DNA of 64,000 nucleotides from Gordonia malaquae NBRC 108250 (GTDB lineage Bacteria; Actinomycetota; Actinomycetes; Mycobacteriales; Mycobacteriaceae): contig NZ_BAOP01000005.1 of assembly GCF_000344135.1 (NCBI RefSeq), positions 1 to 64,000 on the forward strand. The letters are read 5' to 3'. The position numbers and the translations under genes are program-made. This document shows, one piece after another, positions 54,111 through 58,917 of this stretch. The stretch's first letter is position 1; each line of letters opens with the position of its first letter. Under the pieces are notes generated by a model. It did no database searches. It saw only the letters and a list, made by a program, of their open reading frames with translations, and was not told the origin of the DNA.

Positions 54111-54313
54111 TGGTCGTCGGGGAGCAGTTCCCTGGAATCGCAGGGAGCACGAAACTCACGACCTGGCCGGAAGGTAACACCGAGGTGTGTTTCGTACACC
54201 ACCCTTATGTGACTTTTGCGGCACAGTGTTCACGACGGTGCGACTCGGGTCGTCAGCACCTCGGTACCGATCAGGCAGGCGACTGAGGACATGCGTGAAC
54301 GTACGATCGACGC

Positions 54314-56086
54314 ATGGATGACGCCAGTGTGTTCGACGTCGAACTGAGTGCGTTGATCGACGTGCTCGGGACCAACCTCTACACGGGGCCGGGCGTGTAC
54401 GTCCGTGAGCTGCTGCAGAACGCGATCGATGCGCAGGCGGAGGCTGGTCGGGCGGACGCGCCGATCGAGATCACCACGGACGGGGCAGTCTTCGAGGTCG
54501 CCGACCAGGGTGTCGGCATGACCGGCGACACCATCGCGCGTCTGCTGGGGACCATCGGCGCCAGCTCCAAGCGCGACCCGTTCGGGTTCGGGTCGACCTC
54601 GCAGATCGGTCAGTTCGGTGTCGGCCTCCTCAGCGGATTCCTCGTCGGCGACCGCATCGAAGTCACTTCCCGTGCGGACGACGCCGATGCCGTCGTCTGG
54701 TCGGGTTCGTCATCGGGAGCGGTTGAACTCTCATCCGGCGACCGCGAGGCCACCGGCACCACCGTCCGCATCATCGCTCGCCCGGACACTCGCTCATGGC
54801 TCGCGCCGGAGAAGGTCCGGACGCTGGCCGCCGAGTACACCGCCATGCATCCGACCCCGGTGCTGGTGAACGGCGAGCGCGTCAACGGAGGCGCAGGCCT
54901 GTTCGGTGATCCGTCCGGCGGCCGGGATGCGGCGCGCGTCGCGTTCAGCCAGGACGAGCTCGGTTTCACGCCGTTGGAGATGTTCGACGTCGACGTCCCG
55001 GAGGCGGGCCTGCGCGGAGTGGCGTTCGTGCGGCCGAGCGGCGGCGACCTCGTCGCCAGGGCGACCCATCGCGTGTACGTGAAGGGCCTCCTCGTGGGGG
55101 ATGTCCCCGCACTGGTCCCGGAATGGGCGTACTTCGTGCGGCTCGTCGTCGACTCGACCGGTCTGAAGCCGACGGCGTCGCGGGAGGGACTCGTCCGCGA
55201 CGACCTGTTCGACGCAGTGTCGGTCTCACTCGGTGAGCAGATATCCGCGTGGCTGACGGGCCTCGGCTCGCGTCCGGTGGTGCGAGAGAGATTCCTGAAC
55301 GTGCACGAGCAGGGAGTCAAAGCCCTCGCCGCTCACCGACCGGAACTGCTGGGCTTCGTCGACAAGCACTGTGTCTTCGACACCAACGTCGGTCCCATGC
55401 CGCTTGCCACGTTCCGCGCTCGATTCGACACGATCCGCTACGCGGGGAGCGTCGACGACTATCGGGTGCTCGCCGACATCCTCGCCGGGCGGGGGATCGG
55501 TCTGGTGAACGCCGGACACGCGTTCGAGACCGCCGTCATCCGCGCGCTGATCGCCGCGGACCCGCAGCGCAGGTGCGAACCCATCGGACAGCAGTTCCTG
55601 CTGTCTGCCCTGTCGACGCCGAGCGCCGAACTGCGCACCGAGTTCGACGCCGCAGTCCACCTGGCTCGGCGCGCGGTCTCACCCTTCGACTGCGAGGTGA
55701 GCCTGCGCGAGTTCGATCCGGACGGGATCTCCGCACTGTTGTTGACCGACGACTCGGCCCGCATCGCGCAGGACCGGACCGAGATGCTGTCGGAGGCGGC
55801 GGGCGAACCGGACGCGTGGCTCGCCGCGCTCGCCGCGCTCGACGACGGCGACGTCCCCCCGACTCGGCCGGTGCTGGTCCTCAATGCGACCAACGCTCTG
55901 GTCAAACGTCTCCCGACCCTGGGCGACGACGTCGTCGCAGGAGCACTCATCCGGGTGATCTACAGCCAGGCGATGCTCCGAGCGCGGCGTTCGGTGCGAG
56001 TGGCCGCGGCGTCCGAACTCGACTCGGCGATCACCCTGCTCGCCGATCTCGCGACCCGCGACAGCATCGAAGGAGACGTGGAATGA
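54314..56086 (+). CDS. HSP90-family ATPase (HtpG-like) coupled to a TPR-like protein
   Basis: 590 residues. The GHKL ATP site is intact: YVRELLQNAIDA at about 35-46, VADQGVGM about 64-71, LLGTIGASSK and IGQFGVGLLSGFLV (FGVG as in Hsp90 with the GxFGVGxxS loop). The middle domain has HRVYVKGLLVGD and PTASREGLVRDD; the C-terminal part is short and divergent compared with E. coli HtpG (about 625 residues), and no charged linker is visible. It ends ATGA with the next gene. Matching 'HSP90 family' genes exist in streptomycetes. The client is unknown. Confidence 0.82.
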   Translation: MDDASVFDVELSALIDVLGTNLYTGPGVYVRELLQNAIDAQAEAGRADAPIEITTDGAVFEVADQGVGMTGDTIARLLGTIGASSKRDPFGFGSTSQIGQFGVGLLSGFLVGDRIEVTSRADDADAVVWSGSSSGAVELSSGDREATGTTVRIIARPDTRSWLAPEKVRTLAAEYTAMHPTPVLVNGERVNGGAGLFGDPSGGRDAARVAFSQDELGFTPLEMFDVDVPEAGLRGVAFVRPSGGDLVARATHRVYVKGLLVGDVPALVPEWAYFVRLVVDSTGLKPTASREGLVRDDLFDAVSVSLGEQISAWLTGLGSRPVVRERFLNVHEQGVKALAAHRPELLGFVDKHCVFDTNVGPMPLATFRARFDTIRYAGSVDDYRVLADILAGRGIGLVNAGHAFETAVIRALIAADPQRRCEPIGQQFLLSALSTPSAELRTEFDAAVHLARRAVSPFDCEVSLREFDPDGISALLLTDDSARIAQDRTEMLSEAAGEPDAWLAALAALDDGDVPPTRPVLVLNATNALVKRLPTLGDDVVAGALIRVIYSQAMLRARRSVRVAAASELDSAITLLADLATRDSIEGDVE

Positions 56087-58917
56087 GCGGACCGCACATC
56101 GACCCGACGATCGGCGAGATCCTCGACGACCTGTGGATGGCACGACACGGCGACCCGCGATTCGGGCACGAGGACTTCGCTCCGTTCCCCTCGCTGATCG
56201 CACGCGCCGACGAGACCGGCGACCTCGACCTGCGCATCCTCACTCGGCTCGAAGGCGCGTACTCCGCACTGTGGGCAGGCCGCACCACCGACGTGCTGAC
56301 ACTCGTCGCCTGGCTGTATCGGACGCAGGACGCCCACGGCGCCGACGTCGAACTCGACGACTGGCAGATGGAGCAGTTCCAGACGACCGTCGTCGACCTG
56401 CTCGACTCACTCACCGGAATCCCCGAGTTGTCCCTGGACCAGATCCGCGGCATCACCGACGACTGGTCGCGGCGGGTCAAAGGCACCGTGTACTACGCGC
56501 CTGCCGTTGAGGCTGCCGTTCACGCCGACATCGCGGTCCACCAGGGACGGTCGGACGAGGCTGTCCGCATTCTCGACGGGTGCGTCGACTACCGCCCGCC
56601 CGCCGGGACCTGCGGCCCGGGGACGCGTGCGACCGTGGGCGCGGTCTACGTCGCGGCGGGCGCCTACTCCCAAGCCGAGGCGCTGTCGACTCCCGATCTC
56701 GACGGTGATCCGGCGGAACGGTGTGGCTTCTATCCGGCGGAGACGTACGGCGCACTGATCGAGGCGTGGGGTCGCGCCGGACGTCGGGACGACGTGATCA
56801 GAGCGGCGCGGTCGCTGGAGGAGACGTACAGTCCGGTTCATCTGTACGGCCACATCGCTGACGCGATGGTCGCACTCCTGCGGGTCGACGCGCTCGCCGA
56901 AGCGCTGCCGATGGCGCTGCGCCATGCGGACGTCGTCGACCAGTGCCCCAACCCCTTGGCGGCGGCACAGTTGGCCGCGGCGCTGTCGGCGACCTTCGCA
57001 TCGGCCGCGGACAGCGACGCCGACACCGTCGTCGTCCGACACGACGAGGACGGGGCGCCCGGGCCGGTCGCGGCGTCGCAGGTTGCCGCCGAACTCGCCG
57101 ACTACGTCCGGGTGACGGCAGGTCGGTTCGACGTGCGCAATGCGTCGAACGCCGTGTCGGCGGGGCTCGAGGAGGTGTTGGCGGTCCGTGCGACCACCGC
57201 GCTGCAGACCAAGGCCGACACCCGGGTGACGCCGATCGCGAACCGGACGGCTGCGGAACTGGTGTCGGGCCTGTCGGCGTTCGCCTCCTCGTCGCCGCGG
57301 CGCGCCGAACAGTGCGCGGACGCGCTGCGGCCACGGGTCGAGGAGCTGTCCGGCCGGACCCGCATCCGAGCACGGCACATGTTGGCATGGGATCGACGCC
57401 GTACCGATCCGCACGGGGCCGTCGAGGAGCTCCGCGCCGCGGCAGACTCGAGCCGGTCGGACTATCCGGCATGGTCGGCCCAGTCGGATCTGCTCGCGGC
57501 GCTGCTCGAGGTGCACAGCGGCGGAGCATCCCCCGAACTCCTCACCGGTTGGCGCGACGCGGATCCCGAATGGAGTGCGGGCGCACGCGCCAACTTCGCA
57601 CGACTTCTCGGCATGGCTCTCGCCCCGTTCGACCCGACCCGCGCGCTCGCAGCAGTCGACGAGGGTCTCGCCGTGCTCGACCGGGTGGACGCCGGGGAGA
57701 TTCCCCTCCTGGACGATCCGGAGGCACTCGCGGCGACCGGTTCGGTCGACGCCGACGCCGCAGCGTCGCGGTCCGCGCTGCACCGTCTGCGGGTGGACGT
57801 GCTCGGTGAACTCGCCCGCGGATCCGACGGTTTCGACCCGTCCCGCGAGGTGGACGCGGCCTTGGTGTCGGCGCGGCGCGCAGCCGACCTCGCGAGTGAT
57901 CCCGATCAGGCATTGCTGTACAGATCGGAACTCGTCGGGGCGTTGCAGCTGGCCGCAGGCGTGGCCGCACGGACGGACGGCGCCGCTGCACTCCTCCTGC
58001 TCGGTGAGGCCGAGACCGTCGCGCGGTACTCCTTGCTGGCAGAGGTCTTGGCGTCACGATCGGCGCTGCGGCTCGACCTCGACGACATCGACGTCGCACG
58101 GGACGACGCCGAACGGGCGCTCGCGGTGTGGATGGTCGAAGGTGACGACGCGGCCGCCGACGTGGCGCGCTTCGACCTCGGGCACATCATGCTCATGCGC
58201 GAGGAGGACCCGCTCGCCGTGATCGAACTCGTGGAGTCCGCGGTGGCGACGATGGAGACGCGCGGCGACATCGGGGCTCAGATGCAGGGCATGCAGGTCC
58301 TGGCACGGGCGCAGTCCGCCGCAGGACGGTCCGGCGATTCCGTCGAGTCGTACACCAGGGTGATCGACGCGTACACCGACCACGTGCCGCCGGTCGTCCA
58401 GGCGCAGTTGCACGCCGCGCGGGCCGTCGAACTCGCCGACCAGCAGCAGTTCCCCGAAGCTCTCGCCGACCTGGACGCCGCCGTCACCTGGTACTCGGAG
58501 TCGGGTGCGGGATTCGATGCGGCGGACTGCCTCCGCACGGCCGCCCTCACGGCGTACTTCGCGGGTGATCATGACGGCGCCAATGCCTACCTCGCGCGTG
58601 CCGACCAGGCGTACGAGGAACTCGCGACGGCTGCACCCGTCGACTTCGAACGAGCCCGGCTCGACTTCGCGCGCGCCGACATCGTGCGGGTGTCGGATCC
58701 GGAACGTTCCACCGCATTGCTGGTGGACGTGGCCGCACGAGCCCGGGCCGCGAATTGGATCGGCCTGTTGATACCGGTTCTGCACCTGTCCGCGACCATC
58801 GCCGCCGACGACGGTCTGACTGCCGACGCCCTCGCACTGGTGCAGGAGGCGTTGCGTCACGCACCCGACCACCCGGCGCTGCTCGACCTGCTCAGCGAGT
58901 TGGAGTTTCCCGGCTGA
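56083..58917 (+). CDS. Large TPR-like protein, presumed partner of the HSP90-family ATPase
   Basis: 944 residues from ATG at 56083, overlapping the HSP90 stop by 4 bases. The sequence is almost entirely amphipathic helices with Ala-rich TPR/SEL1-style repeats, clearest in 640-944 (for example ALLLLGEAETVARYSLLAEVLASRSALRL, AQLHAARAVELADQQQFPEALADLDAAVTWY, ANAYLARADQAYEELATA). No enzyme domain and no signal peptide, so it is cytoplasmic. Eukaryotic Hsp90 uses TPR co-chaperones; here the tight coupling suggests an analogous pairing evolved separately, or a client-binding scaffold. No literature function is known to me. Confidence 0.75.
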   Translation: MSGPHIDPTIGEILDDLWMARHGDPRFGHEDFAPFPSLIARADETGDLDLRILTRLEGAYSALWAGRTTDVLTLVAWLYRTQDAHGADVELDDWQMEQFQTTVVDLLDSLTGIPELSLDQIRGITDDWSRRVKGTVYYAPAVEAAVHADIAVHQGRSDEAVRILDGCVDYRPPAGTCGPGTRATVGAVYVAAGAYSQAEALSTPDLDGDPAERCGFYPAETYGALIEAWGRAGRRDDVIRAARSLEETYSPVHLYGHIADAMVALLRVDALAEALPMALRHADVVDQCPNPLAAAQLAAALSATFASAADSDADTVVVRHDEDGAPGPVAASQVAAELADYVRVTAGRFDVRNASNAVSAGLEEVLAVRATTALQTKADTRVTPIANRTAAELVSGLSAFASSSPRRAEQCADALRPRVEELSGRTRIRARHMLAWDRRRTDPHGAVEELRAAADSSRSDYPAWSAQSDLLAALLEVHSGGASPELLTGWRDADPEWSAGARANFARLLGMALAPFDPTRALAAVDEGLAVLDRVDAGEIPLLDDPEALAATGSVDADAAASRSALHRLRVDVLGELARGSDGFDPSREVDAALVSARRAADLASDPDQALLYRSELVGALQLAAGVAARTDGAAALLLLGEAETVARYSLLAEVLASRSALRLDLDDIDVARDDAERALAVWMVEGDDAAADVARFDLGHIMLMREEDPLAVIELVESAVATMETRGDIGAQMQGMQVLARAQSAAGRSGDSVESYTRVIDAYTDHVPPVVQAQLHAARAVELADQQQFPEALADLDAAVTWYSESGAGFDAADCLRTAALTAYFAGDHDGANAYLARADQAYEELATAAPVDFERARLDFARADIVRVSDPERSTALLVDVAARARAANWIGLLIPVLHLSATIAADDGLTADALALVQEALRHAPDHPALLDLLSELEFPG

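Follow-up and report, generated by a model that had tools for sequence, protein, structure and literature searches.

Eukaryotic Hsp90 works with TPR co-chaperones such as Hop/Sti1, and the MEEVD sequence serves as its docking tail. For bacteria, Press et al. (2013; PMC3708813) describe Hsp90 without identified obligate co-chaperones, and hsp90B and hsp90C paralogues are excluded from the analysis in that paper. Chen et al. (2006; PMC1525184) distinguish three HTPG groups, place Actinobacteria in groups A and C, and give S. coelicolor two copies from different groups, one of them of 615 aa. In the text available from these two papers, the term TPR occurs zero times and a partner protein is not described; we also found no description of such a partner in a library of open-licence papers, which omits most subscription journals.

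Here, we present an analysis of a two-gene locus in Gordonia malaquae NBRC 108250, contained in a window of 64,000 nucleotides (positions 1 to 64,000 of contig NZ_BAOP01000005.1). The first gene (ORF1) encodes a member of an already known, little-studied Hsp90 family; the new part is its genetically coupled TPR partner, which is encoded by the second gene (ORF2) and is near-obligate and deeply conserved across the genomes sampled.

Results

Layout of the locus

ORF1 and ORF2 are both on the + strand and overlap by four bases in an ATGA junction (Table 1). In the open frame of ORF1, the ATG at 54314 is the sole upstream-most start when ATG, GTG, and TTG are considered. For ORF2, a mechanical ORF list gives an alternative frame of 1222 aa from a GTG at 55249; the start of the 944-aa frame has a GGAG upstream and is consistent with the starts in close relatives. 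The 590- and 944-residue proteins and their four-base overlap, as described in an initial annotation of this DNA, were thus confirmed. The pntA and pntB genes lie 5' of ORF1, while genes for a LuxR-type response regulator and a histidine kinase lie 3' of ORF2 on the opposite strand.

A TANNAT hexamer is present 6 to 8 nt before the Hsp90 start at all nine Gordonia-clade loci, including that in the window, and was not found at L061, a locus of another clade and the tenth in the genus. TANNAT just before a start codon is the pattern expected of a leaderless transcript, and judging from its position and conservation, TACGAT at 54302-54307 is a probable promoter -10 element.

Table 1. Features of the Hsp90-partner locus, in window coordinates
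Feature	Coordinates	Strand	Description	Basis
TACGAT	54302..54307	+	Probable -10 element of leaderless promoter, 6 nt before ORF1 ATG	Conserved in clade
ORF1	54314..56086	+	HSP90 family protein (NF010683/PRK14083; probably HSP90 group C), 590 aa	479.4 bits vs cut-off of 455
VRELLQNAIDA	54401..54433	+	ATP-site motif with E32, N36, and D39	Alignment to E. coli HtpG; three residues invariant in 18 members
GQFGVG	54608..54625	+	Glycine motif of ATP site	No variation at G99, F101, G102, and G104 among 18 members
SRE	55178..55186	+	Middle-domain motif; R290 = E. coli R336	No variation at R290 and E291 among 18 members; S289 almost invariant
ORF2	56083..58917	+	TPR partner protein, 944 aa, start overlaps ORF1 stop (ATGA)	Predicted helical solenoid
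Conserved N-terminal core of partner	56083..57204	+	374 aa as aligned; FDVRN at residues 349-353	Profile match
C-terminal TPR superhelix of partner	57700..58914	+	Residues 540-944	Predicted; VIA-align to 6hc2_A

ORF1 is an Hsp90 distinct from HtpG

The family model NF010683 (PRK14083) matches residues 4-584 of ORF1 with profile positions 5-599 of 604, i.e., nearly full length, and above its curated cut-off. In the alignment to E. coli HtpG, residues E34, N38, D41, and D80 correspond to E32, N36, D39, and D64 of ORF1; G84, G121, F123, and G124 correspond to G68, G99, F101, and G102; and the middle-domain residues S335-R336-E337 correspond to S289-R290-E291. The catalytic residues of Hsp90 comprise the E, N, and D residues, the glycine motifs, and the middle-domain R. 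All of the mapped residues are present in ORF1, in agreement with the complete Hsp90 ATP site previously reported for it. ORF1 is, by sequence, an Hsp90 with an intact ATP site, and we predict that it has ATPase and chaperone activity. Pfam families above cut-off were solely those of the ATPase domain; as for a C-terminal dimerisation domain, the NF010683 match extends to residue 584 and the AlphaFold model of ORF1 has a pLDDT of only 36.

The initial annotation had used bacterial HtpG as its frame of reference. ORF1 shares the Hsp90 superfamily and the catalytic residues with canonical HtpG (hsp90A; NF003555). However, the NF003555 model gives 121 bits, under its curated cut-off of 371; the source genome encodes a separate canonical HtpG on another contig; and in a phylogenetic tree, a single branch with a support of 100/100 splits 24 NF010683 members from 12 canonical HtpGs (the 24 come from 28 NF010683 proteins, of which four near-duplicates were left out). 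Based on these three observations, we ruled out that ORF1 is HtpG. Within NF010683, the Gordonia-clade members are divergent and low-scoring, with 476-494 bits compared with 678-869 bits for nearly all other loci in the class.

NF010683 probably corresponds to group C in the HTPG classification by Chen et al. (2006), designated hsp90C in Press et al. (2013), because Actinobacteria are found in groups A and C, S. coelicolor has two copies from different groups, and the 615-aa copy matches in length the Streptomyces-like NF010683 members identified here (612-627 aa). Control searches for the Hsp90 family were also positive in Deinobacterium chartae and Corynebacterium glutamicum. For two genomes, G107 and G257, no canonical HtpG-type match was among the matches listed (for G107, scoring did not extend to all candidates), and the NF010683 protein may be their sole Hsp90.

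ORF2 is a predicted TPR-type helical solenoid with a conserved N-terminal core

No NCBIfam family matched ORF2, and its direct sequence match to TPR_12 (28.7 bits, E 1.5e-6) is under the Pfam cut-off of 30.1. An AlphaFold2 model made with four Gordonia sequences is almost all helical (mean pLDDT 70.5, pTM 0.35). Searched with this model, Foldseek returned matches that include the TPR domains of LGN, and VIA-align placed residues 540-913 on 6hc2_A (NuMA/LGN complex) with a Z score of 22.4 and an rmsd of 5.0 over 329 aligned residues; these structural matches bear on the C-terminal superhelix and barely probe the N-terminal half. Based on the model, we predict that ORF2 is a TPR-type helical solenoid. 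This agrees with the helical-repeat character proposed for it initially, solved TPR superhelices being among its nearest folds. The predicted superhelix of residues 540-944 resembles TPR solenoids of the LGN, KLC, and Rap/NprR type in fold only, and since the likeness to LGN is one of shared fold, it is no evidence of function. A Hop-type co-chaperone was not among the sequence matches of ORF2 to solved structures. In the other partner proteins scanned, only single TPR families exceeded the cut-off, i.e., TPR_8 in Listeria and TPR_19 in L089 (see below), and no NCBIfam family was matched.

The region common to the partners is the N-terminal 320-370 aa. It contains an FDxRN motif, of which the D and the R are invariant in 20 aligned cores. 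When L061 and the divergent Gordonia clade are set aside, nearly all cores also have a DCxAC motif. We recognised no counterpart of the FDxRN core among known co-chaperones. With filters off, a profile built from 20 non-Gordonia-clade partners found the window partner at E 2.2e-18 and all nine Gordonia-clade partners at E 6.3e-13 or better, while the best of 200 shuffled control sequences had E 2.2; with filters on, the window partner was not listed. A profile-profile comparison gave 99.6%. The window partner was matched weakly by a profile of Bacillota partners only (E 0.0077) and was not listed with a profile of Streptomyces-type partners only, a name that for class genomes is taken from their plasmid relatives. 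The superhelix is more variable than the core in actinobacteria other than Gordonia and is absent from three Bacillota partners. In the Gordonia clade, core and superhelix are conserved about equally, which does not help to divide labour between the two.

The Hsp90 gene and the partner gene form a conserved unit

In a sample of 394 genomes of the class, 53 Hsp90 loci in 46 genomes exceeded the NF010683 cut-off, and at 52 of these loci the partner core is encoded immediately downstream on the same strand. Eight of the 53 loci had contributed to the partner profile; when these are left out, the partner is present at 44 of 45. Counted by genome and with kinship ignored, 45 have both genes, one has only the Hsp90, four have only the partner, and 344 have neither. 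Within the genus, 10 of 59 genomes have an Hsp90 over the cut-off, and the same 10 have a partner of at least 329 bits, adjacent in every case (six of these partners were in the profile); three weak partner matches of 20-28 bits were not counted, and two further genomes have only matches in this range. In a phylum sample of 296 genomes, all 10 genomes with an Hsp90 (12 loci) have the partner; two genomes have an orphan partner, and six have weak matches of 18-25 bits that were likewise not counted. The initial annotation had called for a survey of actinobacterial co-occurrence and had stated that its reading would be refuted if homologs of the ATPase usually lacked the partner; homologs are instead usually paired, and the reading was not refuted. 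In one genome (G626), the Hsp90 gene is split into two overlapping frames (L103:7671-9790) by a frameshift or an assembly error, and the second piece, of 319 bits, was dropped so that the locus counts once.

At 21 actinobacterial loci (that in the window and 20 over the cut-off), a co-oriented ORF of 380-1019 aa lies directly downstream of the Hsp90 gene; because the longest ORF was taken, its presence alone proves nothing, and it is the profiles that place these partners in one family. Phyla other than Actinomycetota were sampled through plasmid and phage records only. Among plasmid records, the pair is present in all six with an Hsp90 match (three Streptomyces, two Listeria, and one Paenibacillus), and the Bacillota records carry a minimal partner of 324 and 322 aa in Listeria and 353 aa in Paenibacillus. 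Thirteen of 28 Hsp90/partner junctions overlap by four bases, and 27 fall within -34 to +25, the other being +87. A genome-contig search with one protein returned only three close Gordonia relatives, and of two viral-contig scans one gave two distant ATPase loci and the other nothing.

Some of these loci have unusual architectures. In Listeria monocytogenes NCTC7974 (L085:9797-11762), two minimal partners (324 and 322 aa) follow the Hsp90 gene in tandem, with an SMI1/KNR4-family gene after them; the other Listeria record has one partner copy. In G679 (L102:9806-12010), one partner gene contains two tandem core copies in a single frame. The pair is also found in one unverified phage record (L089:1915-6488), a 6.6-kb entry from human faeces labelled 'Bacteriophage sp.'; the two genes fill most of this record, which may be a fragment of bacterial DNA. 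The other two phage records with a match are Listeria phage fragments of 1.5-1.6 kb.

Altogether, the Hsp90 and its partner are a conserved unit in the genomes sampled, with an adjacency far above chance. Short gene overlaps are common in actinobacterial operons, and two functionally unrelated genes could in principle be kept together by the history of an operon. However, the adjacency extends across Actinomycetota and Bacillota, although identity between pairs drops to 25% for the Hsp90 and to 17-20% for the partner core, and none of the 20 canonical htpG loci described below has the partner family beside it; we therefore regard this explanation as very unlikely. Rather, the near-universal adjacency supports a dedicated Hsp90-TPR pair.

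Consistently, pairwise distances of the Hsp90 and of the partner core are correlated over 28 pairs (Pearson 0.96, Spearman 0.76) and over 13 representatives (Pearson 0.90), and 0 of 2000 and 0 of 5000 permutations matched the Pearson values; because linked genes share ancestry, these correlations are no proof of binding. The dN/dS ratio of both genes relative to three relatives is 0.055-0.253. In G345, a genome of the same genus, the Hsp90 is only 35% identical to that in the window and falls outside the Gordonia clade on a poorly placed long branch. Its partner of 380 aa was not found with the window partner as query and resembles other partners in the class, with E 2.5e-12 at best. It looks as if G345 gained the Hsp90 and the partner together.

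Canonical htpG loci, the exception, and orphan partners

The partner core family was found at 0 of 20 canonical htpG loci when ~5 kb downstream of each was searched, with one match of 15.7 bits (L116). At 10 of these loci, Pfam identified no TPR in the next same-strand ORF, one of which had no family at all; the 10 loci outside the Pfam scan comprise three without a same-strand ORF and seven with short or doubtful ORFs. On a Pseudanabaena plasmid (L095:4213-9795), an 877-aa Hsp90-like ATPase is encoded next to a TIR-domain gene, with a gene for a TPR protein one further; a relationship of this TPR protein to the partner core was rejected (E 0.087).

The sole class locus at which the partner core does not follow the Hsp90 gene is in G475. 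There, the Hsp90 gene is followed by a gene for a 297-aa protein that has TPR_2 and TPR_8 above cut-off and is unmatched by the partner core profile; it is in ATGA overlap with the Hsp90 gene if the given start, chosen inside a longer frame, is used. This apparent replacement argues for a binding role of the partner.

Among 59 partner matches in the class at E 1e-20 or better, seven are unpaired, comprising the tandem second copy in G679 and six orphans. There are thus at least six partner loci without an Hsp90, all actinobacterial (L091, L092, L098, L099, L100, and L101), and the count is a lower bound because scoring covered just a few candidates in each genome. Four of these six are in genomes without an NF010683 Hsp90 over the cut-off. 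L092 and L100 have a common neighbourhood, as do L091 and L101. We considered that the L091 orphan arose from loss of the Hsp90 gene via the neighbouring IS110 and rejected this because its sister locus L101 has no IS110 among the called ORFs; at L101, only 90 bases separate the partner frame from the next gene, and an Hsp90 is likewise missing. The existence of orphans indicates that the dependence is nearly one-way and that the partner can work alone.

These observations bear on the main rival to a dedicated co-chaperone pair, i.e., that the TPR protein is a dedicated client, a large helical-repeat protein that is folded or activated only with this Hsp90 and itself does the work, e.g., that of a sensor or a scaffold. 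Coupled translation and a near one-way dependence would fit a client, orphans suggest that the partner functions without the Hsp90, and a weak profile match links the partner to NprR, a TPR regulator (E 0.0022); this similarity may be one of repeats only, since a better score is reached by designed PPR repeats (E 2.8e-7). In contrast, the filling of the partner slot in G475 by a TPR protein that is negative with the core profile favours a binding role; the size of the Listeria and Paenibacillus partners, just 322-353 aa, also speaks against a client. On balance, we consider the client explanation unlikely, if still to be taken seriously, and we prefer the co-chaperone or adaptor reading.

Stress, defence, and regulation

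The initial annotation had suggested a dedicated chaperone/adaptor system and, possibly, a stress or defence module. The pairing at 52 of 53 loci is in line with the first part; the second part found no support from defence models, operator sites, or the position of the locus. Eight PADLOC models (REase_II and TmtA) match ORF1, all within residues 3-127, i.e., in the shared ATPase domain; there is no full-length defence-family match for ORF1 and no PADLOC match at all for ORF2. Using the consensus sequences of the CIRCE and HAIR operators, we found three CIRCE-like patterns in the window, fewer than in shuffled sequences and none near the pair, and zero HAIR-like patterns; thus, we rejected heat-shock control via CIRCE or HAIR. 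An uneven occurrence across genomes (46 of 394 in the class and 10 of 59 in the genus) and the presence of the pair in six records filed as plasmids, some of them chromosome-sized, would suit a stress or defence module. However, the Gordonia-clade locus keeps its position behind pntB, as seen at the eight other loci of the clade (PntB identity of 83-98% at seven and 43% at the eighth); at the G345 locus, from another clade of the genus, pntB is absent. Together with the PADLOC and operator results, this makes it very improbable that the pair belongs to a stress or anti-phage defence module.

In Listeria, the NF010683-type Hsp90 is likely lmo0942. Two Listeria papers mention this gene, one as a cloned fragment of 93 bp and the other among listed heat-resistance genes that carry single-nucleotide variants.

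Discussion

We consider it fairly probable, from the genomic evidence, that ORF1 and ORF2 form a dedicated pair of an Hsp90 and a TPR co-chaperone or adaptor, in which the partner would bind the Hsp90, regulate its ATPase, and serve its clients. The interpretation given in the initial annotation stands in part. As in the case of eukaryotic Hsp90 and Hop/Sti1, an Hsp90 is accompanied by a protein that is predicted to be a TPR solenoid. In contrast to eukaryotic Hsp90, the bacterial members have no conserved MEEVD-like tail, and the partner is encoded beside its Hsp90: the Hsp90 C-termini differ among 21 and among 18 members, and several end without acidic residues. Because the tails are not conserved, docking of the eukaryotic type is unlikely, and we rejected an MEEVD-type tail as the docking site.

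We suggest the following model for the dedicated pair. A single mRNA would encode both proteins, their translation would be coupled, and the NF010683/group C Hsp90 would be the ATP-driven chaperone of the two-gene unit. The N-terminal core of the partner may dock on the Hsp90 dimer body rather than on a C-terminal MEEVD-like tail, and the docked core could tune the ATPase cycle of the Hsp90. The C-terminal superhelix of actinobacteria, which is longer and more variable than the core, may hold or deliver one or a few specific clients.

More tentatively, we speculate that this Hsp90 lineage is one of the ancient ones of bacteria and that a near-obligate TPR co-chaperone of its own already accompanied it when Actinomycetota and Bacillota had not yet diverged, with docking that is independent of the tail and occurs via the FDxRN core, and with the partner swapped in one lineage for a TPR protein unrelated to it. 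We see this as a possibility worth raising rather than as the expected outcome.

The gene behind this Hsp90 at 52 of 53 loci is a concrete candidate for a bacterial co-chaperone, and our findings suggest that a built-in co-chaperone comes with some of the Hsp90s of bacteria. Whether bacterial Hsp90 has co-chaperones can now be tested with two purified proteins and one deletion, e.g., in Streptomyces, and the minimal partner of 322-353 aa is the version suited to structural work. If the proposed history is true, the Hsp90-TPR partnership would be a recurrent or older solution and not a eukaryotic invention.
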